A stretch of DNA of 38,623 nucleotides from a virus. Below, piece by piece: positions 7,510-33,364 of this stretch. Position 1 is the first letter of the stretch. Each line of letters begins with the position of its first letter. The position numbers were made by a program, and so were the translations under genes. The notes beneath the pieces were generated by a model that was not told the DNA's origin, did no database searches, and was given only the letters and a program-made list of their open reading frames with translations. The DNA is taken from positions 1 through 38,623 of IMG/VR virus record IMGVR_UViG_3300045051_000128; one strand, written 5' to 3'.

Positions 7510-8169
7510 ATGCGGAACGTATGGCTAGCGGCAATGCTGGCAGGCTCCCCGGTCATTCTAGGCCGGCGAGTCCTGCCGTTTTCCGTTTGCCATTCGATGA
7601 TCCTTCATGCCGCGGAGAATCCTTATTGGTTCGGGCGTGAGTGCCGGCCAGAGGATTTGATTGAGGCGGTCATGGTCTGCTCGCGGACATGGGAGCAAAA
7701 CCGCGAACGCTTTGCCAAGGATGGCCGCAGAGAGGCGCGACGGCTTGCGGCTAGGTTGTACCTGCGCAAAGAATTTCAAGCCGCGCATGAGGCATTTGCG
7801 GCGTACCTAAACGATGCTTGCGACGTGACTGCCCGCGAGTTGCCAGACACGGACGGCGGGCGCGAATTGGTTGCGCCTTGGCAATTTCGCATCGTGCCGT
7901 TTCTGATGCGCCATGGAATGAGCGAAAGTGAAGCGTGGAATTGTCCGGTAAATCGTGCGCGGTGCTACCTAGACGCTACGGCGGAAGAGGCCGGCGATGC
8001 AATCTTGTGCGACGGCGTGCAGGAAAACGCATACGCCTTGATCGTTGAGGCGAACAAATTGGCCGCGGCTGGCCAGCGCGAACAGGCGGACGAACTTTAC
8101 AATCGGGCGCAAGCGGTATTCGACCGAAAGAGCGGCGCGTCTGATGCGCTTCGGAAGGCGTTGAAATGA
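7510..8169 (+). CDS. Tail protein between tube and tape measure; possible assembly chaperone
   Basis: 219 residues, alpha-helical and Trp/Cys-containing, with a conserved-looking N-terminal stretch LPFSVCHSMILHAAENPYW. The slot between tube and tape measure normally holds tail assembly chaperones (lambda gpG/gpGT). There is no obvious slippery site giving a G-GT fusion, and the gene overlaps the tape measure by ATGA. The last 50 residues form a helical tail. The chaperone role is inferred from position. Confidence 0.4.
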   Translation: MRNVWLAAMLAGSPVILGRRVLPFSVCHSMILHAAENPYWFGRECRPEDLIEAVMVCSRTWEQNRERFAKDGRREARRLAARLYLRKEFQAAHEAFAAYLNDACDVTARELPDTDGGRELVAPWQFRIVPFLMRHGMSESEAWNCPVNRARCYLDATAEEAGDAILCDGVQENAYALIVEANKLAAAGQREQADELYNRAQAVFDRKSGASDALRKALK

Positions 8170-9491
8170 GCGAGACGGCATCACTGACGGTCAAGATGGG
8201 ATTAGATGGCAAGCCGTTAAAGGACGGCTTGAATAGCGCAAAGGGCGAAGTGCGCTCGTTTGCCGCATCGTTCAAATCCGAACTTGGCGAGACGAAGGGC
8301 GCAGTAAAGGACGTTGCAGGAACCATTGAGGGAATGTCTCGCGCATTTGATGGCAGTGTGTCTGGCGCGGTTGGTGGATTCAAAGACTTCATTGGATTGC
8401 TTAAAACTAGTCCGCTATTGAGCATTGGCGGATTGGTCGCGGGCGTCATCACTGCCATTGCGACATCGGCGGAAAAGGCAGCGAATGATGCCGCGGAAAA
8501 GCTCGCAAAGAGCATAGAAGAGTTCAAGCGACTACGCAAAGAAGTCGAAGACATCAAAGATCGTTCGGCCAAAAAAGACCGCGAAGATTTGCGCCCAGAG
8601 GCAGGCACTCGCGAGGCAATCGACTTTGCCCGCGAAGATTTTAAGATGGCCGAACAGGCATATCAGGCAGAGCTAAAGCGCAACGAAGAGTTGAAAAAAC
8701 GATCCGCTTTACATCAGCAGGCGCAGCGTGATTTGCAGCAGATGATGCAGTCCGGTCTTTACGGAGAAAGTAACGATGTAGCAGATGCGGTTCGTAAATT
8801 GACTCCTAATCAAATTGGAGCAACTGGAGAATCAATTGAGCAGCAGCGCGCATATCTTGCGCGTCGCGGATTTATGTCTTCATGGACTGCCGAGTCTTTG
8901 ACCAAGGCCGCAAATGACAAGGCAAGCGCGAATGACTTGGAGAAATCGGTGCGCGACGTGTATGCCGCCAATGAAAAAATGGGAGATGCGCGGCGTAAGC
9001 TGAACGAAATTACTGCGGCCTACGATAAGCGCAGGCTATCCGAAAATGAGCAGTCCACAAAAGCCGCATACGACAAAGAGCGGAAGATGGAAGAGGACCG
9101 CTTAAAGATGATGGCGGAAGGCCATAAAGAAGCGGCGGACTTGGCGCGCAAGAATGGCGAGGAGCTTGTCAAAATAGAGGAGCAGGCAGCGGAGAAGCGT
9201 CGAGAAGCTTGGAAAAAAGAGGCAGAAGATAAGGCGCAAGCGCAGCAGGATGCCGCCGCTGAAATGTCCGCGCTTGAATCTGGAAAAGATAGATTTTCAA
9301 GCCGTTTTTCTGCGGACCAGTACGCCCGCGTCGGTGGTGAAATAGGTGGTCGGTCAAATATGCGCGAGCTTCGCGATGCAGAAAAACAGGCGCAGCTTTT
9401 GGAAAAAGGCAACGACATTACCGCCAAGATGCTTAACCGAATCGAAAAGATTGAAAGCGTAATGGCGAAGGCCGTGGACGGTGAGCAATGA
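8166..9491 (+). CDS. Tape measure protein (short)
   Basis: 441 residues. N-terminal LTVKMGLDGKPLKDGLNSAKGEVRSF is the typical opening of tape measure proteins. A hydrophobic Gly/Ala segment at about residues 75-105 (SIGGLVAGVITAIATSAEKAA) would insert into the host membrane. Long charged coiled-coil stretches follow (about 110-420). With about 0.15 nm per residue the tail would be roughly 65 nm, short for a siphovirus. It overlaps both neighbours by ATGA. Confidence 0.75.
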   Translation: MSETASLTVKMGLDGKPLKDGLNSAKGEVRSFAASFKSELGETKGAVKDVAGTIEGMSRAFDGSVSGAVGGFKDFIGLLKTSPLLSIGGLVAGVITAIATSAEKAANDAAEKLAKSIEEFKRLRKEVEDIKDRSAKKDREDLRPEAGTREAIDFAREDFKMAEQAYQAELKRNEELKKRSALHQQAQRDLQQMMQSGLYGESNDVADAVRKLTPNQIGATGESIEQQRAYLARRGFMSSWTAESLTKAANDKASANDLEKSVRDVYAANEKMGDARRKLNEITAAYDKRRLSENEQSTKAAYDKERKMEEDRLKMMAEGHKEAADLARKNGEELVKIEEQAAEKRREAWKKEAEDKAQAQQDAAAEMSALESGKDRFSSRFSADQYARVGGEIGGRSNMRELRDAEKQAQLLEKGNDITAKMLNRIEKIESVMAKAVDGEQ

Positions 9492-21458: not shown

Positions 21459-21703
21459 CTACACTCGGACATATATGCGCGCTCATAATCGGCGCGGTTG
21501 CTGGATGGCAAACGATGGCATACATACGCCGCAATTGGAGCAGCATCCGCAGCTACATCATCGCGTGCCTGTTCGACCTTCGCCCGTGGCTAGTCCGCGC
21601 AATCGGATGCGGACTCATTGCGGCGTGCATCGTGTTCGGTTCGATTGGCGGATTCACCTGCGCCGTGAAAACGTTTGGCGTTAAGAAGGAGATGAGGAAG
21701 TGA
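21455..21703 (+). CDS. Small two-pass membrane protein
   Basis: 82 residues. Membrane segments at about residues 3-22 (LGHICALIIGAVAGW) and 48-70 (VRAIGCGLIAACIVFGSIGGF), with a basic C-terminus. It overlaps both neighbours by 4 bp. Unknown function; it is not next to lysis genes, so I do not call it a holin. Confidence 0.55.
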   Translation: MTTLGHICALIIGAVAGWQTMAYIRRNWSSIRSYIIACLFDLRPWLVRAIGCGLIAACIVFGSIGGFTCAVKTFGVKKEMRK

Positions 21704-23919
21704 CAGAGTATGAGCAGTTCATTGCGGGCAGGGCACTAAAAGACTCGCCTACGGGATTGACGGACGTTCCCGCGTTATCGTCCATGCTGTTTGAATATCA
21801 GCGCGATATCGTGCGATGGGCACTGATTCGAGGCAGGGCGTGCATCTGGGCTGACTGCGGACTTGGCAAGACTCCGATGCAGCTTGAATGGGCATCGCAT
21901 GTTCCGGGCCGCGTCCTGCTATTTGCCCCGCTCGCCGTGTCACAGCAAACGATCCGCGAAGGCGCGAAGTTCGGGCATTCGGTGGCGTATGCGCGATGCC
22001 AGTCTGACGCCGATGCGATGCTGGAAAAGCTCATCATTACCAATTACGAAATGATCGAACACTTCGAAGCCGATAAGTGGGGCGGAATCGTTCTGGATGA
22101 AAGCAGCATCATCAAGAGTCATGACGGCGCAACTCGCGATATTATCTTGTCCAAGTTCTGTCGCGTTCCGTTTCGACTTGCATGCACCGCCACGCCCGCA
22201 CCAAACGATTACATGGAGATTGGCAACCATGCCGAGTTTGTCGGCAGCATGACGCGGGAAGAAATGCTTGCCATGTTCTTTGTGCATGATGGCGGAGAAA
22301 CGCAGAAATGGCGACTGAAGGGACACGCCAAGTCTGATTTCTGGAAGTGGCTATGCTCGTGGGCCGTGATGATCCGCAAGCCCTCGGACCTTGGCTATAG
22401 CGATGATGGCTTTACTCTTCCGCCGCTGGCATACCATGAGCATGTAATTCATGCCGAATCTGCCGCCGATGATATGCTGATTCCGCTTCCTGCGGCTACT
22501 TTGCAAGAACGCATTGGAGCGCGCCGCGCAACGGTAGATGCCCGCGTTAAGAAGTGCGCGGAACTTGTCAATGGCACCGACGGTCAGTGGCTTGTTTGGT
22601 GCAATCTTAACAGCGAATCGGAGTCACTGGCTTCGGCGATTAATGGTGCCGTTGAAGTATCTGGCAGCGATAGTAACGAGCACAAGGAAAAATCGCTAAT
22701 GGCATTTGCCGCGGGCGAGATTCGCGTCCTTATCAGTAAGCCGCGCATTGCTGGATGGGGCATGAACTTCCAATCATGTCACAACATGGCATTCGTCGGC
22801 CTGTCTGATTCATGGGAATCATACTATCAGGCCGTGCGCCGATGCTGGCGATTCGGTCAAAAGCAATCCGTGAACGTGCATGTAATCACGGCGGATATTG
22901 AGGGCGCGGTTGTGAGCAACATCAAACGGAAAGAAAAGGACGCGGAAAACATGGCGAACGAAATGCTTGAACACATGAAAGACATCAATACGGCAGAGCT
23001 TCATGGAATGACATCGCGGCAAACATCTGGATACGTTCGCAAGGTCAAGTCTGGCAAAGGATGGACTATGCACCTTGCCGACTGCGTTGACTTGGTTAAA
23101 GAACAGCCTGACAACTCGCTGCACTTCTCTGTATTCAGTCCGCCGTTTTCGTCGCTCTACATCTACAGCAACAGCGACCGCGATATGGGCAACAGCAAGG
23201 ACGATGGCGAGTTCATGCGGCACTTTGGCTACATGGTCAAGGAACTGTACCGCGCTATGATGCCCGGGCGTTTGGTGTCGTTCCATTGCATGAATCTTCC
23301 GACAAGCAAGCAGAATCACGGATACATTGGAATTCGCGATTTCCGCGGCGAATTGATCCGACTGTTTGAATCGTTCGGGTTTATCTTCCATTCGGAGGTT
23401 TGCATCTGGAAAGACCCAGTTACCGCTATGCAGCGCACAAAGGCATTAGGACTGCTTTGGAAGCAGATCAAAAAGGATTCGTGCATGTCGCGGCAGGGAA
23501 TTCCTGATTACCTTGTCACGATGCGCAAGCCGGGTGACAATCCAGAGCGCGTTGAGCATACCGCAGAGGATTTCCCCGTTCAGCTTTGGCAGCGTTACGC
23601 ATCACCGGTCTGGATGGACATCAACCCGTCTGACACGCTGCAAAAAGAATCGGCCCGCGAAGAAAACGACGAACGACACATTTGCCCACTACAGCTTGAA
23701 GTGATCCGCCGCGCACTGAAACTTTGGAGCAATCCGGGCGATGTCGTATTCAGTCCATTCGGAGGCATCGCAAGCGAGGGCGTGGTTGCGATTCAGGAGG
23801 GACGCAAGTTCCTTGGTTCTGAATTGAAAGAATCGTATTGGAAGCAGGCATGCGCCAATCTTGAAATAGCCGAGCACGATGCAGCCGATGGGCATTTGTT
23901 CAGCATGGAGCCACAATGA
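21700..23919 (+). CDS. SNF2-type helicase fused to a DNA methyltransferase
   Basis: 739 residues, start GTG 21700 (AAGGAGATGAGGAA upstream). N-terminal ~430 residues: Walker A GLGKT (about 54-58), motif II LDESS (about 132), motif III-like TATPAPND (about 163), helicase C with the motif VI segment QAVRRCWRFGQ (about 377-387), a SNF2/superfamily 2 ATPase. C-terminal ~280 residues: amino-methyltransferase motif IV as SPPF (about 481) and motif I as SPFGG (about 686) followed by EGRKFLGSELKESYW, the permuted beta-type order of N4-C/N6-A methylases. Likely a translocating methylase that protects phage DNA. No target-recognition domain is evident. Confidence 0.88.
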   Translation: MTEYEQFIAGRALKDSPTGLTDVPALSSMLFEYQRDIVRWALIRGRACIWADCGLGKTPMQLEWASHVPGRVLLFAPLAVSQQTIREGAKFGHSVAYARCQSDADAMLEKLIITNYEMIEHFEADKWGGIVLDESSIIKSHDGATRDIILSKFCRVPFRLACTATPAPNDYMEIGNHAEFVGSMTREEMLAMFFVHDGGETQKWRLKGHAKSDFWKWLCSWAVMIRKPSDLGYSDDGFTLPPLAYHEHVIHAESAADDMLIPLPAATLQERIGARRATVDARVKKCAELVNGTDGQWLVWCNLNSESESLASAINGAVEVSGSDSNEHKEKSLMAFAAGEIRVLISKPRIAGWGMNFQSCHNMAFVGLSDSWESYYQAVRRCWRFGQKQSVNVHVITADIEGAVVSNIKRKEKDAENMANEMLEHMKDINTAELHGMTSRQTSGYVRKVKSGKGWTMHLADCVDLVKEQPDNSLHFSVFSPPFSSLYIYSNSDRDMGNSKDDGEFMRHFGYMVKELYRAMMPGRLVSFHCMNLPTSKQNHGYIGIRDFRGELIRLFESFGFIFHSEVCIWKDPVTAMQRTKALGLLWKQIKKDSCMSRQGIPDYLVTMRKPGDNPERVEHTAEDFPVQLWQRYASPVWMDINPSDTLQKESAREENDERHICPLQLEVIRRALKLWSNPGDVVFSPFGGIASEGVVAIQEGRKFLGSELKESYWKQACANLEIAEHDAADGHLFSMEPQ

Positions 23920-26815: not shown

Positions 26816-27310
26816 ATGACTTTGACCCCGAAAGCAAGTGAGGCAATCCGTGGCAGCAATGCCATGTTCGGCCAACTATCACCACTTGTCGTAGGGGTCT
26901 TTTTTGGTGCCACAATGTCCGAACGCAAGTCATATCGCGAACTGCTTGACGATCCTCGATGGCAGAAAAAGCGGCTTGAAGTGCTGGAGAAAAACCAGTT
27001 TACGTGCCGCGGTTGCGGATCAAAGGAAAAAAAGCTCAACGTACATCATCGCATGTACAAAAAAGGGCGCAAGCCGTGGGAATATGAGCTTATTGACCTT
27101 ACCGTACTTTGCGAGGACTGTCATGAAAAGTGGCACTCTGTATATGAGTCGATATGCGCAACGTTTGCCTACATGGAGCCGTCGGAACTGATCGAGCTTT
27201 ATGGAATAAAAAAAGGAGCATACGTGGTCGCAAAGCTTTGGCCGGTCATATTGATCGATGCTCAAACCGAATCCTTTATGGACCTTATGAATATGAGTGG
27301 TGAAAAATGA
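26816..27310 (+). CDS. HNH endonuclease
   Basis: 164 residues from ATG 26816 (AGGAAA upstream). An alternative ATG at 26915 gives a conventional 131-residue HNH protein starting MSERKSYRELL, as many relatives do, but without a ribosome site. TCRGCGSKEKKLNVHHRMY and DLTVLCEDCHEKWH hold the two zinc CxxC pairs and the HH metal/base residues of the beta-beta-alpha-metal fold. It is not next to terminase, so a free-standing or homing nuclease is possible. Confidence 0.75.
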   Translation: MTLTPKASEAIRGSNAMFGQLSPLVVGVFFGATMSERKSYRELLDDPRWQKKRLEVLEKNQFTCRGCGSKEKKLNVHHRMYKKGRKPWEYELIDLTVLCEDCHEKWHSVYESICATFAYMEPSELIELYGIKKGAYVVAKLWPVILIDAQTESFMDLMNMSGEK

Positions 27311-28053
27311 AGTGCAAGGATGGTTCGCGCTTCAAGTTCATGAAGTTTTACCCACGCGATTGGTTAAGCGACATCGAACTTCACCGATGCAGCGTTGCGG
27401 CCCGTGGGCTTTGGATTGACATGCTTTGCCTTATGACGCAGGGAAGCGAATACGGAAAGCTTCTAGACGCATCAGGCGCGAAGATTGGCATAGACCAGCT
27501 TGCGTTTGACGTGAGACTAAAGACGGAGTTTGCGGAACAGCTTATCGAAGAGCTCAAAGCGCACGGAGTTTGCAGCGTTGACGATTCAGGAGTCATATTC
27601 TGCCGGCGCATGATCCGCGAGTCAGAATTGAGCGAGGCAAAGTCTGCGGCTGGAAAACTTGGCGGAAATCCAACTCTTAAAAACAAGACTGATGAAGATG
27701 CTAGAGACCATATTCTATATTCTAGAGGCTGCTTAAGCACACCGGATAAGCAGGAGGATAAGCAGGAGCTTAAGCAGCAGGATAAGCAAAGCACAGAAAA
27801 AAAGTCTGGCATGACTGATTACTCAATCAATCCTCCGACGCTTGACGATATAAAAAAGGCGGCAATCAATATCGCCATGCGAGCGGAAGACGTTGAATCA
27901 TGCTTCAACCATTACGACTCGCAAGGATGGAAGCACGGCAGCGGAATGCCAGTCACAAGCCTTTCGTCGCTATTGGCCAAGTGGAAAGCAAGGGCGAACC
28001 AATTTGATCGCAAGGACGATCCAGCAAAACCGCGCAAGCTTTGGGGAGATTAA
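27307..28053 (+). CDS. Replication initiator-like protein
   Basis: 248 residues. N-terminus FKFMKFYPRDWLSDIELHRCSVAARGLWIDML is the winged-helix opening of phage replisome organisers. A low-complexity Gln/Lys linker (DKQEDKQELKQQDKQ, about residues 140-160) carries DNA repeats at the nucleotide level. The C-terminal VESCFNHYDSQGWKHG ... SLSSLLAKWKARANQF is the DnaT/lambda O-type helicase-loading region. It would bind the origin and recruit host helicase. Overlaps the HNH gene by ATGA. Confidence 0.75.
   Translation: MKCKDGSRFKFMKFYPRDWLSDIELHRCSVAARGLWIDMLCLMTQGSEYGKLLDASGAKIGIDQLAFDVRLKTEFAEQLIEELKAHGVCSVDDSGVIFCRRMIRESELSEAKSAAGKLGGNPTLKNKTDEDARDHILYSRGCLSTPDKQEDKQELKQQDKQSTEKKSGMTDYSINPPTLDDIKKAAINIAMRAEDVESCFNHYDSQGWKHGSGMPVTSLSSLLAKWKARANQFDRKDDPAKPRKLWGD
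27729..27788. repeat. Iteron-like repeats, candidate replication origin
   Basis: Five copies of a (G/C)(A/T)TAAGCA unit at close to 12-bp spacing (GCTTAAGCAC, then GGATAAGCAG, GGATAAGCAG, GCTTAAGCAG, GGATAAGCAA) inside the initiator gene, in the linker. An A/T-rich tract (27701-27726) precedes it and an A-run follows. Lambda has its origin iterons in the same part of gene O. Confidence 0.6.
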
Positions 28054-28751: not shown

Positions 28752-28931
28752 ATGGATTCGAAATGCAAAAAGGTGCGGTACAAGTCGCTTTTTAAGGCAT
28801 GTAAGGCTTGTAGCAGAGCCATGATGCGAGCCTTGAACGATCTGTATTTCATGCGTCCATACTTTTGCCACAAGTGCAATGGATACCACGTAACGTCAAA
28901 GCCGTTTGATTACAGGAAAGCGCACAAATGA
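28752..28931 (+). CDS. 59-residue zinc-ribbon protein
   Basis: Starts ATG 28752, overlaps the next gene by ATGA. KACKACSRA and FCHKCNGYHVTSKPF give C-x2-C ... C-x2-C, then a Y-H-(V/L)-T-S-K motif typical of a group of tiny phage zinc ribbons. A promoter-like TTGCTT, 17 nt, TGATAT (28714-28742) lies just upstream. Function unknown. Confidence 0.65.
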   Translation: MDSKCKKVRYKSLFKACKACSRAMMRALNDLYFMRPYFCHKCNGYHVTSKPFDYRKAHK

Positions 28932-29857: not shown

Positions 29858-30124
29858 ATGAAAGTCACCGTCAAATGCCAGCACGCAACGCGCAGGCCGA
29901 TTGAAGTCGGCACGCTTTGGATGAGTATTTCGTCCGGAACCGTTTTTTTGCTTCAAATGCTCAACTCAAGGTGCTATTTCATTGTGCCGATGTATCCGAA
30001 AGATTCAATCGTAGAGCAGCGGTGTTCGTTTGAGACTGCGGAAGAAGCCATTTGCGGATTGATGCCGTTTTATGGGTCGGTTACGATTAAGCAGGTAGAT
30101 GATGAGCAACACTTACAACCATGA
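29858..30124 (+). CDS. Small unknown protein upstream of the cassette array
   Basis: 88 residues, 2 bp after the previous stop. Beta-rich (KVTVKCQHATRRPIEVGTL, CYFIVPMYP) with a short helix (ETAEEAICGLMPF). Its 3' end overlaps the first array gene by 23 bp. No family recognised. It lacks the PNT-type end found in the array genes. Confidence 0.5.
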   Translation: MKVTVKCQHATRRPIEVGTLWMSISSGTVFLLQMLNSRCYFIVPMYPKDSIVEQRCSFETAEEAICGLMPFYGSVTIKQVDDEQHLQP

Positions 30125-30410
30125 CTCGGCGCCTGTTACGGTGGCACCGATTGTTGGGCCGCTCGAGGTGGCGTCATTCGCTCTTCCGATCTCCATCAAG
30201 TCGCTCTCTGAAATCTCCGAAACATTGACGCGGGAACATGGCCCCGGACTTACAATGCGCGAGGATCACGGAAAGCTTATCGTCGAGCGGCCCAACACAC
30301 CGGAGCACCGACAGAGGCTCGCGGCTATTCGAGGTACCTCCAACAACCCTTTGAGCGTGCCAGAGCCCGCCGCGGGGTCTGGCTACGCTCGAAAGGATGG
30401 TTCGCCATGA
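30102..30410 (+). CDS. Array gene 1: small protein with tag-like ends
   Basis: 102 residues from ATG 30102 (or 30099). The N-terminus APVTVAPIVG is encoded by the right half of an attC-like site and is shared with the gene at 32829. The unique core is about 80 residues, helical (SIKSLSEISETLTREHGPG). The C-terminus runs through an attC-like site as PNTPEHR and later PAAGSGYARKDGSP. Ends by ATGA overlap with the next gene. Function unknown. Confidence 0.55.
   Translation: MSNTYNHDSAPVTVAPIVGPLEVASFALPISIKSLSEISETLTREHGPGLTMREDHGKLIVERPNTPEHRQRLAAIRGTSNNPLSVPEPAAGSGYARKDGSP
30122..30159. repeat. attC-like site, right half only
   Basis: Contains the box GTTGGGC at 30153-30159. Bases 30132-30159 are identical to 32859-32886 in the complete site near 32.8 kb. 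No matching left half is present upstream, so this may be the junction where the array joins the phage backbone. Confidence 0.6.
30290..30406. repeat. attC-like site (composite)
   Basis: GCCCAAC at 30290 begins a left half like that at 32785. From CTCCAAC (30338) to GTTCGCC (30406) lies a 69-bp imperfect palindrome: GAGCGT-GCCAGA pairs with TCTGGC-T-ACGCTC leaving one unpaired base, and an outer CCTTT/AAAGG leaves another. Bases 30364-30404 are identical to 31180-31220. The next gene starts at 30407, immediately after the right box. Confidence 0.65.
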
Positions 30411-30622
30411 GGATCAGCATTCGCAAACACAAGACGGTTCACTCAACAACCGGGGAGACGATCATTGTCACCATGGACGGAACCGGCCAGCAGTTTTCGA
30501 CGATTCAAGAGGCCGAGCAACACCTCCGCAGCCTCGTGCGCGAAATGACATCATGTATCGACAGCGCGCTGGACACCTACCACGACAATCAGGCGCACAC
30601 TTCGCCTGAGGTGCGGACATGA
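30407..30622 (+). CDS. Array gene 2: small unknown protein
   Basis: 71 residues; the ATG directly follows the GTTCGCC box, as in integron cassettes where the gene starts at the recombination point. Beta hairpins (RISIRKHKTVHSTTGETIIVTMDG) then a helix (TIQEAEQHLRSLVREM). Overlaps array gene 3 by ATGA, so the cassette carries two genes. Confidence 0.55.
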   Translation: MRISIRKHKTVHSTTGETIIVTMDGTGQQFSTIQEAEQHLRSLVREMTSCIDSALDTYHDNQAHTSPEVRT

Positions 30623-30927
30623 AGCGCCAGCGGAATGGCCGTAACCTCAAGGCAGTCGTTCGGGGCGTGGCTGTCAGCAAGCTCACGCAAGGCGACAGAT
30701 TCTTATGGCGCGACACTCTTTATACGTGGCTTAAGCCGGACCATTCCATCGCCAGCCGCAAATGGATCATTGCGCGCAAGCACGGGCCTGATTCAATTAG
30801 GCTTGGAATGCGCGGGTATGGGTACAATGGAGACAGCATCGTTGCCTTCCCGTGGCGCACTCGCGTTGAATTTGTACCTCCGAACACCCCTGGCCAGGGT
30901 CGGCCCGAGAAAGATGGTGCATCGTGA
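30619..30927 (+). CDS. Array gene 3: small basic protein with NTPG end
   Basis: 102 residues. Basic, beta-rich (AVVRGVAVSKLTQGDRFLW, DTLYTWLKPDHSIASRKWI), with an SH3-like look. The last residues PPNTPGQGRPEKDGAS are encoded by the following attC-like site. Stop overlaps the GTG of the next gene. Unknown function. Confidence 0.55.
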   Translation: MKRQRNGRNLKAVVRGVAVSKLTQGDRFLWRDTLYTWLKPDHSIASRKWIIARKHGPDSIRLGMRGYGYNGDSIVAFPWRTRVEFVPPNTPGQGRPEKDGAS

Positions 30928-30984
30928 GCGAGTCGAAACAACTCCTTGCGGCAACCGCCGTACCTATGAGCCCGATTGTTGGGC
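30879..30984. repeat. attC-like site, long class
   Basis: 106 bp from TCCGAAC (30879) to GTTGGGC (30984). Next to the boxes, GGC-CA-GGGT-CGGC pairs with the reverse complement GGCTCATAGGTACGGC leaving unpaired bases, less perfectly than the other sites. The start codon of the next gene (30924) lies in its central loop. Left part resembles the short site at 31693. Confidence 0.5.
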
Positions 30985-31361
30985 AGGATCGAGGCCTATC
31001 TCTGTTAACGCTCATGCCCGATCTTCTCGCAGACTATGGCCATCCATGGCCTGGCGAGGATGCTGGCACAAAGGCCCATCGCGAATGGATGCTTGCACGC
31101 ATAACGGTTGCAGATCGACTAAACCAGCAAATGACCAAGGCGATGATGCGTTTGCCCAACACCACCTTGAGCGGGCCGAAGCCCGCCGCGGGGTCTGGCT
31201 ACGCTCGAAAGGATGGTTCGGTCGTGCATTTATGCCCATCTGATGGCGAAGGCGCAATGCCGTGTTGCGGACTAACTCCGTTTGAGGTTCCTCCCACTGA
31301 CAGACTGACCAGTAACTCGCAGCTTGTGACGTGTAAACCGAACACCACGAGCAGCGTTTGA
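30924..31361 (+). CDS. Array gene 4: two-module fusion read through an attC-like site
   Basis: 145 residues, GTG 30924. N-terminus MSESKQLL ... SPIVG is tag-like. Module 1 (about residues 20-77) is helical and ends in PNTT at an attC-like site. The frame continues through the whole site as PAAGSGYARKDGS and enters module 2 (about 98-138), VVHLCPSDGEGAMPCCGLTPFE then VPPTDRLT, a small Cys/His domain known from actinobacterial and actinophage mini-proteins. It ends CKPNTTSSV at another left box. Fusion seems due to cassette insertion in frame. Confidence 0.6.
   Translation: MSESKQLLAATAVPMSPIVGQDRGLSLLTLMPDLLADYGHPWPGEDAGTKAHREWMLARITVADRLNQQMTKAMMRLPNTTLSGPKPAAGSGYARKDGSVVHLCPSDGEGAMPCCGLTPFEVPPTDRLTSNSQLVTCKPNTTSSV
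31154..31222. repeat. attC-like site, short class
   Basis: 69 bp from GCCCAAC (31154) to GTTCGGT (31222). Stem CTT-GAGCG with CGCTCGAAAG, extra bases unpaired, and a GC-rich terminal loop GCCCGCCGCGGGG. Shares 41 identical bases with the site ending at 30406. Lies inside the coding frame of array gene 4. Confidence 0.65.
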
Positions 31362-31365
31362 AAGG
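31337..31365. repeat. attC-like left half
   Basis: ACCGAAC at 31337 followed by ACCACGAGCAGCG, matching the left ends of the 31154 and 32052 sites. The stop codon of array gene 4 and the ribosome site of array gene 5 follow. No right box was found, so this is a partial site. Confidence 0.45.
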
Positions 31366-31369
31366 ACCG

Positions 31370-31738
31370 ATGATGAAACGAACGAAATCACATCAAACTC
31401 GAGGCGGGACTTTCAATAAGCTGCCTCGACTGGTTCGCGACTGGACTGCGGAAGAGTCAGAAGAACTGATCCGCCTGTACGAAGACGGCGGGGACAAGGC
31501 GTGTCTTCCAATGCGAATCATCGCTAAAAGGCTTGGCCGATCAGAGGCGGCTTGTTGGGCGCGTCTGATTCGAGTTTGCCGAGCTGCGAGGGCGGAAGCA
31601 GATCGCAACGCGGCGATTAAGAAAACGTGCGGCGACAAAATCGGCGGCGAGATCATCGCTCGCATTGACACGGCGATTGCGAATTTTGAGAGCGCGAACA
31701 CTCCGGGCCAGATTCGGCCCGGAAAGGAGCAAGAATGA
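31370..31738 (+). CDS. Array gene 5: Myb/SANT-like DNA-binding protein
   Basis: 122 residues, ATG 31370 after AAAGGA. WTAEESEELIRLYEDG, then RIIAKRLGRSEAACWARLIRV, is a three-helix Myb/SANT or GcrA-like fold (W-T-x-E-E ... I-A-x-x-L-G-R-S). Possible transcription regulator. C-terminal helix, then a tag-like end SANTPGQIRPGKEQE encoded by the next site. Overlaps array gene 6 by ATGA. Confidence 0.65.
   Translation: MMKRTKSHQTRGGTFNKLPRLVRDWTAEESEELIRLYEDGGDKACLPMRIIAKRLGRSEAACWARLIRVCRAARAEADRNAAIKKTCGDKIGGEIIARIDTAIANFESANTPGQIRPGKEQE
31693..31730. repeat. attC-like site, short hairpin form
   Basis: CGCGAAC at 31693, then a perfect stem CCGGGCC AGATTC GGCCCGG and GAAAGG, similar to the left part of the site at 30879. 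No clear right GTT box. It may be a decayed site, and it supplies the end of array gene 5 and ribosome site of array gene 6. Confidence 0.45.
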
Positions 31739-32079
31739 ACACCGCAAAGAAGCGAATTGCCACGCGGAAACGCCGTAATCTGCGCCCGTTTGTTCGGTGC
31801 GTGAATCGTGACCGTATCTTGCAGCTTTCCAATGATCTCACCGAGAACATCAATTCAGGCACCCGTGAGGAATGGATGGCGGTCGCCGAGTTCTGGCGCG
31901 ACCTCTACGAGCACCAGCAACGGGCAACGATTTCCCTTCGTGACCACATCCTGAAGCACGCGATTCAATCGGTGAACTGGTACCAAGATGACATGCGCCG
32001 CGTCGAATTTGAGCAAACCATGCTTGAGGCCAAGCCGCGGAAACTTCGTACACCGAACACGACGGGTGAGCGTCCGTGA
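31735..32079 (+). CDS. Array gene 6: small unknown protein
   Basis: 114 residues. Very basic N-terminus (AKKRIATRKRRNLRP), then amphipathic helices (RILQLSNDLTENINSG, WMAVAEFWRDLYEHQQ). Ends RTPNTTGERP within the following attC-like site. No family recognised. It is the last gene before a terminator. Confidence 0.55.
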   Translation: MNTAKKRIATRKRRNLRPFVRCVNRDRILQLSNDLTENINSGTREEWMAVAEFWRDLYEHQQRATISLRDHILKHAIQSVNWYQDDMRRVEFEQTMLEAKPRKLRTPNTTGERP

Positions 32080-32121
32080 GCCCGCTGCGGGATCACGGTA
32101 CGCTCGGCCCGCTGGTTGGGC
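32052..32121. repeat. attC-like site, short class
   Basis: 70 bp from ACCGAAC (32052) to GTTGGGC (32121). Stem GAGCGT-CCGTGA pairs with TCACGG-T-ACGCTC leaving one unpaired base; the outer CGGG pairs with CCCG; the terminal loop holds CCCGC T GCGGG. Same layout as the sites at 30338 and 31154 although the stem bases differ, which indicates that structure is conserved. Confidence 0.7.
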
Positions 32122-32128
32122 TCTTTTT
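32106..32128 (+). terminator. Rho-independent terminator overlapping an attC-like site
   Basis: GGCCC, 7-nt loop, GGGCT (one G-T pair), then CTTTTT. The 3' strand of the hairpin is the right box of the attC-like site, so transcription from the upstream genes should stop there. Confidence 0.55.
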
Positions 32129-32150
32129 GCCCCTGCAAAATAGTTGCAGA

Positions 32151-32183
32151 TTGTTGTTGCAACCTAAGCCGCTTAGGTTATCT
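32151..32183 (+). promoter_or_regulatory. Promoter with overlapping palindromic operator
   Basis: TTGTTG (32154-32159), 18 nt, TTATCT (32178-32183). The spacer is nearly filled by the perfect palindrome AACCTAAGCCGCTTAGGTT (32161-32179), a good operator for a dimeric repressor. A second inverted pair GTTGCA/TGCAAC flanks the -35. It would drive the genes from 32231. Confidence 0.5.
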
Positions 32184-32230
32184 TGTCTCCAGACGGTAGA
32201 GATAGAGCAAAAACCAACAGGAGACAGACG

Positions 32231-32437
32231 ATGACGACAAGCAAGCAACCGGAGATTGGCAAAGATTACGGCGCGATATTTGGCCTGGAGTCCGACAAGG
32301 GCAGCACGCTGGTGTACCTCGGTGGCGACAAGTGGCAGGCGACCAAGCCAGGCGCTACCAAAGAGATGACCAGCCCCGGCACAACGGCCAAGGTGATCGA
32401 GTATATCAACCGCCCCGCCGTCCGCATGGGCATGTAA
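32231..32437 (+). CDS. Array-region small protein
   Basis: 68 residues, ATG 32231 with AGGAGA upstream, first gene after the operator. Beta-rich (GAIFGLESDKGSTLVYLGGDKWQATKPG) with a short C-terminal helix. It uses more G/C-ending codons than the backbone genes, which suggests recent arrival. Unknown function. Confidence 0.55.
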   Translation: MTTSKQPEIGKDYGAIFGLESDKGSTLVYLGGDKWQATKPGATKEMTSPGTTAKVIEYINRPAVRMGM

Positions 32438-32448
32438 GGAGATGTGAG

Positions 32449-32652
32449 ATGACGACCAAGAGCAACAAGTGGACAGTGAGCAACGTTTACGGCATCCGTG
32501 GCGAGACGACGCACCGCACCCCAGAAGCGGCGCTCAAGGCGGCTAGCAAGCGCGAGGGTGAGGGGTGGATCGTGCTCGACCAAGACGGCAACCAGTGGGG
32601 CCGCAACGGACAGGACGAAGCTGTGATCGCGCGCGAGGCCAGCAATGGCTGA
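32449..32652 (+). CDS. Array-region small protein
   Basis: 67 residues, ATG 32449 (AAGGAGATGTGAG upstream). KWTVSNVYGIRGETTHRTPEAALKAASKREGEGW looks like two strands, a helix and more strands, a compact fold with aromatic-rich ends. GC-rich codons like its neighbour. It overlaps the next gene by 8 bp. Confidence 0.55.
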   Translation: MTTKSNKWTVSNVYGIRGETTHRTPEAALKAASKREGEGWIVLDQDGNQWGRNGQDEAVIAREASNG

Positions 32653-32842
32653 TCCGGTCAAAGACTACCTTGCCGCAATCGGGCAGCGAGGCGGGCAGGC
32701 GAACACGGCGGCGCAAAACGCCGCCCGTGCCGCCAACGGCCGCAAGGGCGGGCGACCGCCCAAGAAGCGCCGGAAGACTCGTAAGCCCAACACCCCGGAG
32801 CACCGGACAGGTGCCGCGAAAGGAACCAATGAGCAACGCTGA
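32645..32842 (+). CDS. Array-region basic protein with PNTPEHR end
   Basis: 65 residues, strongly basic (NGRKGGRPPKKRRKTRK), AT-hook-like GRPPKK and Ala/Asn-rich helix before it. Probably binds DNA or RNA. C-terminus PNTPEHRTGAAKGTNEQR is encoded by the long attC-like site, the same PNTPEHR as in array gene 1. Overlaps the next start by 14 bp. Confidence 0.55.
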   Translation: MADPVKDYLAAIGQRGGQANTAAQNAARAANGRKGGRPPKKRRKTRKPNTPEHRTGAAKGTNEQR

Positions 32843-32886
32843 CAAGCATGACGCGGCACCTGTTACGGTGGCACCGATTGTTGGGC
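32785..32886. repeat. attC-like site, long class, best preserved
   Basis: 102 bp from GCCCAAC (32785) to GTTGGGC (32886), boxes that fit the integron consensus RYYYAAC ... GTTRRRY exactly. ACAGGTGCCGCG (32807-32818) pairs perfectly with CGCGGCACCTGT (32852-32863). Outward, GAG-CACCG pairs with CGGTGGC in a way that leaves unpaired bases on the right strand, as extrahelical bases do in attC. The loop holds a ribosome site and the ATG of the following gene. Confidence 0.7.
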
Positions 32887-33095
32887 GGTATTTGGTCCGC
32901 GGCTACTGTTTCGTGCCCGCTGAATGCAAGATGATTGTCGAGGCATCGAGCGCAGAGGAGGCAATCAAGAAGGCCAAAGTTTCAGACTGGAAGAAATCTA
33001 TCGTCAGCAACAGCCACGACAACCATTGCGCGTTCGACTGGCAGCCTATCGCGGAGCAGTTGAGTACGCCCAACAACAGAATAGACCACCAGTGA
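32829..33095 (+). CDS. Array-region protein starting inside an attC-like site
   Basis: 88 residues, ATG 32829 with AAAGGA upstream. N-terminus MSNADKHDAAPVTVAPIVG nearly equals that of array gene 1 because both begin in the same recombination-site half. The remainder (YLVRGYCFVPAECKMIVEASSAEEAIKKA) looks like a beta-alpha small fold. It ends STPNNRIDHQ at another GCCCAAC box (33068-33074). Overlaps the next gene by GTGA. Confidence 0.6.
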   Translation: MSNADKHDAAPVTVAPIVGRYLVRGYCFVPAECKMIVEASSAEEAIKKAKVSDWKKSIVSNSHDNHCAFDWQPIAEQLSTPNNRIDHQ

Positions 33096-33364
33096 AACGC
33101 TCTATGGCAATCGCAAAACGTTGCGCAGCAATGCGAGCAGCGAAAGAGCGAAAGCGTCTATATGGACCATCACGCGAGCCGTACATGGCGGATGATCGTG
33201 TCGAAACGCTAACATACATCGGACTTGGCCAAGTGCGCCGATTGGTATTTCGTCGCGATGGGAAAGGCCGCTTGACAATGCATGACGATTCAGTGATAAC
33301 CGCGACACAGCTTGCCGCTAGTCTGCGGCGATGGATGGCGATTAAGCCTAGGAGGATGGAATGA
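33092..33364 (+). CDS. Small basic unknown protein
   Basis: 90 residues, GTG 33092 at the overlap. Basic helix (AIAKRCAAMRAAKERKRLYG), then a beta hairpin (RVETLTYIGLGQVRRLVFRRDG) and a helix. Probably binds nucleic acid. It has no tag-like end, so the array seems to finish just before it. Confidence 0.5.
   Translation: MKRSMAIAKRCAAMRAAKERKRLYGPSREPYMADDRVETLTYIGLGQVRRLVFRRDGKGRLTMHDDSVITATQLAASLRRWMAIKPRRME

Follow-up and report, generated by a model that had tools for sequence, protein, structure and literature searches.

Clusters of attC sites lacking an integron integrase (CALINs) are known in phages (Qi et al., 2023; PMC9892861), and examples have been described in Tetrasphaera phage TJE1, Pseudoalteromonas phage PH101 and Polaribacter phage P12002L (PMC9892861). 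Integron parts are known from about twenty phage genomes, and five of six phage attC sites that were tested were recombined by the integrase IntI1; the sites were assayed, and movement of cassettes between phages was not shown (PMC9892861). Both the occurrence of CALINs in phages and the recombination of phage attC sites by IntI1 are already published (PMC9892861). Integrons are also known to contain translation signals, namely ORF-11 of attI1, short open reading frames (ORFs) in attC and fused cassettes (PMC8876359; PMC4670013), and the stem-loops and short ORFs of attC and attI affect translation (PMC8876359). Here we describe an array of attC-like sites and about ten small genes at 30.1–33.1 kb of the virus record IMGVR_UViG_3300045051_000128, of which we analyzed all 38,623 nucleotides (the window). 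We conclude that this region is likely a CALIN in a phage, with its sites on the minus strand, its genes on the plus strand and cassettes that would be moved by an integron-type integrase from outside.

Anatomy and strand of the attC sites

We scanned the whole window on both strands for attC-like sites and found that the top scores belong to sites H (83.5), G (78), B (67.5) and D (64; coordinates in Table 1), all within the range of known attC sites scored in the same way. The R'' (RYYYAAC) and R' (GTTRRRY) boxes match in full in site H and deviate in part in sites G, B and D. When the sites were folded as single-stranded DNA, the z-scores on the plus and minus strands were –5.6 and –6.1 for H, –4.5 and –3.1 for G, –5.4 and –4.1 for B and –1.4 and –1.7 for D. 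An imperfect stem with a central spacer and a variable loop is present in H, G and B (z from –3 to –6) and weak in D; it is missing in site C, which folds no better than shuffled sequence (z = –0.4). The motif CCSAACAC occurs seven times on the plus strand, six of them within the 3 kb of the array, while shuffled windows contain a mean of 1.25 in total and never more than 2 per 3 kb. The window has four GCCCAAC and five GTTGGGC words, every one of them located at 30153–33074, although the GTTGGGC at 31554 is probably a chance occurrence.

The strand of the sites is indicated by a register test that looks for an R'' box, 8 nt, an unpaired base at position 16, 6 bp, an unpaired base at position 23, further pairs and 8–10 nt to R'. 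We fixed this register after viewing the known sites and those of the window, which makes the test descriptive rather than blind. The window contains three matches, namely B, G and H; each is on minus and has C16 and A23, and Watson–Crick pairs form at 10 of 10 positions in B, 10 of 10 in G and 9 of 10 in H. Shuffled sequences gave 0.13 matches per window, or 0.017 when the C and A were required. In the controls, most class 1 attC sites were found on the strand of their genes and attC1 of TJE1 was found, while Vibrio-type sites were missed; about 519 kb of other phage loci gave 4 matches, one of which is a site described below (in locus L020), indicating that the background is low but not zero. 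The most conserved extrahelical bases of attC are a G in L'' and a T 6–8 nt further on, and the G directs strand choice (PMC2727003). C16 and A23 on the minus strand read as G and T in the bottom strand and thus correspond to these two extrahelical bases (PMC2727003). The left arm starts with AACAA, as in known sites, and this too makes minus the attC top strand. A first-pass annotation of this DNA had noticed the unpaired bases on one strand, which are indeed present, and had overlooked that they set the minus strand as the attC top strand.

We built two covariance models (R1 and R2) from known attC sites of plasmids and integron-bearing phages, with structures written by hand; these are our own models and not those of IntegronFinder or HattCI. 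The training set of R1 was AT-rich, and in R2 an N was inserted where a spacer base was missing. With R2, site H scores 26.3 bits on the minus strand (E = 9e-5) and 9.6 bits on the plus strand, and G and B score 9.9 and 6.0 bits on the minus strand. With R1, H scores 14.3 bits (E = 0.54) and D 11.0 bits, both on the minus strand. The covariance search, which the first-pass annotation had named as a check, therefore lifts H above background with our R2 model and leaves the other sites weak; H is backed by sequence and structure jointly, and the other sites mainly by structure. A plus-strand polarity of the sites was ruled out by the extrahelical bases, the model scores and the junction between loci L020 and L017 (below). 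A gapped attC pattern search gave chance matches in four other loci (L009–L012).

All of the sites that the first-pass annotation listed are present, and its reading of them as attC architecture is borne out by the scan ranking, the folding and the register test. Four complete sites (B, D, G and H) lie within 2.6 kb, site C, which had been called less perfect, has both R boxes and a degenerate stem, and five further places hold half sites or lone boxes. As that annotation had also stated, the phage has no integrase of its own; we found no match to the integron integrase (TIGR02249) or another tyrosine recombinase (PF00589) anywhere in the window record. A CALIN is made up of at least two attC sites close together without intI, and here there are four complete ones. 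The place that had been listed as a partial site at 30122 is indeed partial, and 30102–30159 and 30290–30318 are the two halves of a site of the 32785 type. The first half is 91% identical to 32829–32886, and the two pair as inverted repeat I1 (30131–30166 with 30283–30318). The whole of element b (30102–30318; half attC, body, half attC) resembles a circular cassette that was opened in the loop of the hairpin and not at R'.

Plus-strand genes and sites within reading frames

Several of the small plus-strand genes overlap as ATGA or GTGA. Codon use is of the coding type in most plus-strand ORFs and near zero in genes b and e, and it is not of the coding type in the minus-strand ORFs, which rules these out as the true cassette genes. 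Weak family matches were obtained on the plus strand for genes f and k, and a tblastn search of phages with genes g and k gave no match. With the sites on the minus strand (by the register test, the covariance scores and the AACAA start) and the genes on the plus strand, the array has a polarity opposite to that of ordinary cassettes. In an ordinary cassette the gene has the same orientation as the attC and the attC lies downstream, which is not what we found here; that arrangement is typical of cassettes and does not define a CALIN. The first-pass annotation had missed both this polarity and the position of the sites within coding sequence: the palindromes that it placed between small genes are real, but most lie inside or across coding sequence.

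On the plus strand the R' boxes are read in frame as x-N-T or x-N-N of the preceding gene, and 9 of 9 cores are in codon phase 0, including box A in gene b, E in gene e and I in gene k. The Asn codons of the boxes are AAC in 9 of 9 cases, though this phage uses AAT for 47% of its Asn codons. At 30102, C and H, GTT in the R'' box encodes the V in the leader APIVG or SPIVG of genes b, e and k, and GAAAGGA-type Shine-Dalgarno sequences are found in or beside B, C, E, F and H, ahead of genes c, e, f, g and k. For one gene the sites thus provide the Shine-Dalgarno sequence, start codon and N-terminal leader, and for the preceding gene the C-terminal tail; they double as translation starts and tails. 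The placement of leaders, tails and Shine-Dalgarno sequences presumably matters for expression.

The boxes are also where similarity ends. Identity between copies stops after GTTGGGC for the 30102 half and H, before GCCCAAC for A and H, and at both ends for B and D; in site C, identity to the 30102-type leader stops at GTTGGGC. Among the proteins, the similarity of gene d to a protein of Pseudomonas phage ZY21 (E = 0.4, weak) runs up to the residue ahead of the PNT box, and that between gene k and phrog_35833 begins at residue 19, directly after the GTT of the R'' box.

These translation signals could also be read as a sign that the repeats are phage elements acting at the RNA level, either translational coupling hairpins or terminators, that merely resemble attC. 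The Shine-Dalgarno sequences and start codons in or beside five sites, the ATGA and GTGA gene overlaps and the T run after site G agree with this. Unpaired bases at 16 and 23, homology that ends at the R boxes and a cassette difference located at AAC do not follow from this reading, and the two roles are not mutually exclusive; as an explanation of the repeats, we regard it as very improbable. Ordinary terminators were ruled out because a T run follows site G only. Within 32100–32240, site G is followed by the terminator-like GCCCGCTGGTTGGGC with its T run and then by a AACCTAAGC/GCTTAGGTT palindrome upstream of gene h, which may be an operator or promoter region.

Table 1. Sites and genes of the array (positions in the window).
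Feature	Position	Strand	Description
Half attC, R'' and left arm	30102..30159	–	GCCCAACAATCGGTGCCACCGTAACAGG on minus; plus strand encodes leader MSNTYNHDSAPVTVAPIV of gene b
Half attC A, right arm and R' (box A)	30290..30318	–	Complements the 30102–30159 half; inverted repeat I1, direct repeat D17
attC site B	30338..30406	–	69 bp; C16 and A23 extrahelical; left arm holds the Shine-Dalgarno of gene c; R' core falls within gene b
attC site C, degenerate	30879..30984	–	Both R boxes, poor stem; gene e takes its start region and its leader (..MSPIVG) from here
attC site D	31154..31222	–	69 bp; shares 91% identity with B across 65 nt; translated through in frame within gene e
Partial site E	31337..31366	–	R' box, Shine-Dalgarno of gene f
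Partial site F	31693..31735	–	R' box, short hairpin, Shine-Dalgarno of gene g; similar to left part of C
attC site G	32052..32121	–	70 bp; extrahelical C16 and A23; T run next on plus, terminator-like
attC site H	32785..32886	–	102 bp; extrahelical C16 and A23; loop contains Shine-Dalgarno and ATG of gene k
R' box I	33068..33074	–	Right end of array; supplies last residues of gene k
Gene b	30102..30410	+	Leader, body and tail; leader and tail derived from sites
Gene c	30407..30622	+	
Gene d	30619..30927	+	Weak similarity to Pseudomonas phage ZY21 protein
Gene e	30924..31361	+	PIVG leader, two PNT boxes
Gene f	31370..31738	+	Helix-turn-helix (HTH)/Myb-like match, weak
Gene g	31735..32079	+	
Gene h	32231..32437	+	
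Gene i	32449..32652	+	
Gene j	32645..32842	+	Tail ..PNTPEHRTGAAKGTNEQR encoded by site H
Gene k	32829..33095	+	Similarity to phrog_35833

A cassette-sized difference and the proposed exchange

The protein at 33361, used as a query, recovered 51 related loci, and two of them (L017 and L020), which have the genes at 33361 and 34000 in common with the window, differ by one piece of cassette size. To either side of a point, along 3.7 kb and 273 bp respectively, L017 and L020 are about 95% identical, and at this point L020 has about 395 bp that are missing in L017. The piece is bounded by AAC boxes, its two ends share little beyond AAC, and on the minus strand the joint falls within GTT, which is the place of the IntI cut (G/TT). 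It contains an attC on the minus strand (8088–8180, 22 bits, 9 of 10 in the register test) and a plus-strand gene ending in LPNTQLSDAQRSE. Ahead of the point, L017 has an HTH gene with the tail NTQLSDAQSSE; in L020, a near-identical tail (TQLSDAQRSE) is on the inserted gene and the HTH gene carries a new tail, NVQAEPDAQHP, from the inserted site. R' cores are in codon phase 0 in 3 of 3 cases in these two loci. The layout, with its polarity and its tail swap, is the arrangement proposed for the window, found in another phage. The empty point in L017 (8270–8319) resembles a short attC of about 50 bp that is degenerate, with a fold z of –0.3 to –1.1. The comparison of related phages that the first-pass annotation had suggested thus gave one cassette gained or lost at G/TT, though not among close kin of the window, of which none were found.

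This difference bears on whether the sites are former attC sites that are now relics, with cassettes spread by homologous or illegitimate recombination at the repeats and no integrase. Such a history would fit the half or degenerate state of the elements at 30102, 30290, 30879, 31337, 31693 and 33068, the 91% identity of B and D, which could recombine, and the lack of intI in the window record and in the three related records searched (L017 and L020 among them). However, the ends of the L020 piece share only about AAC, which is too little for homologous exchange, and they lie on the predicted crossover; H, G and B also retain their R boxes, extrahelical bases and stem. We therefore consider relics to be an unlikely explanation.

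For a CALIN served from outside, the exchange could proceed as follows. A recombinase of the integron-integrase type, from the host or a co-resident element, would be supplied in trans; it would fold plus, which is the bottom strand of attC, and swap cassettes within the R' box where AA meets C on the plus strand, equivalent to G/TT on the minus strand. A cassette would consist of an attC, often with a Shine-Dalgarno sequence, start codon and N-terminal leader, and the downstream plus-strand gene body; the body would usually lack its own stop, and the following site would encode the tail with which the gene finishes. Since the R' cores share a single codon phase, upstream genes would stay in frame after an exchange and new bodies would enter the phage operon at once. 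The phage operon runs counter to the attC polarity, and genes that face in its direction may have been selected or built. IntI would perform the exchange and the sites would still be active.

A hairpin-dependent exchange other than that of the integron integrase might act on the sites instead. The polarity reversed relative to the genes, the absence of an integrase from the record and the likeness of element b to a circle opened at its loop could be explained in this way. The crossover point and the asymmetry of the sites match IntI substrates, and we know of no candidate enzyme for such a process, to which we give very little credence.

Several observations weigh against a CALIN that depends on an outside integrase. 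The inverted gene orientation is unusual for cassettes. The gain or loss lies in another phage pair that shares just two small genes with the window, and it is one event for which either state could be ancestral. Only H exceeds 20 bits, with our own model and not that of IntegronFinder, R1 with its AT-rich training gave H an E value of 0.54, and G, B and D are below threshold by covariance model; the R boxes of G, B and D are partly off consensus, and C does not fold. Taken together, the attC sites, the lack of intI and the difference between L020 and L017 support the earlier proposal of an attC-type array that depends on an outside recombinase, while the part played by IntI is one that we infer.

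The rest of the record has genes for a lambda-type portal, a ClpP-like protease and a GpA-type terminase, and the GC content is 0.58 in the array and 0.51 in its flanks. We found no close relative of the window record in the phage collection, no DNA similarity match for the window among phages and plasmids and no match in an Rfam search of it. Relatives sought in viral contigs with the terminase, the protein at 28928 and the site and leader sequences gave none, or a single chance match in a tail gene (L001). At 21700–23919, a single ORF of 739 aa fuses a helicase-type region with an N6/N4 DNA methyltransferase and has relatives in L015, L044, L046 and L047, and at 27747–27788 a 12-bp tandem repeat (TAAGCAGGAGGA) is present three times inside ORF 27307–28053.

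Comparison with described integron systems

We tentatively propose, as one possible reading, that the array represents a phage-adapted cassette type, in which the attC polarity would be reversed and each attC would carry the start signal and leader for its own gene along with the tail and stop for the preceding one, with all boxes at a single codon phase, such that a borrowed integrase would yield immediately translated, end-tagged proteins in the phage operon. The layout, reversed and in frame, points to a way of expressing promoterless cassettes in phages that differs from that of integrons, with the site supplying the translation start and the tail. If this is true, small phage accessory genes would be interchangeable modules moved by host enzymes.

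Like the window, described phage CALINs have attC sites and small cassettes without intI, and attC1 of TJE1 passes the register test. In TJE1 the genes and attC sites have the same direction; in contrast, in the window the directions are opposite and the sites are inside reading frames. In P12002L, attC sites are reported in divergent directions (PMC9892861). The attC sites of class 1 integrons and of Vibrio and Shewanella chromosomal integrons resemble those of the window in the order of R'', L'', L' and R', the spacer, the extrahelical bases at 16 and 23, the variable loop and the crossover at G/TT. They commonly have YTAAC, which holds TAA, whereas the window has CCSAAC/GTTSGG boxes, and the window also differs in that the gene is on the other strand and the start signals are inside the site. 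As with ORF-11, the short ORFs of attC and fused cassettes, a recombination site in the window gives the next gene ribosome loading or continues its frame; however, ORF-11-type signals are limited to particular arrays, whereas in the window they are found at nearly every site and in one codon phase. Compared with these systems, the reversed polarity of a whole array, the in-frame embedding at constant codon phase and the cassette difference between related virus records are new.

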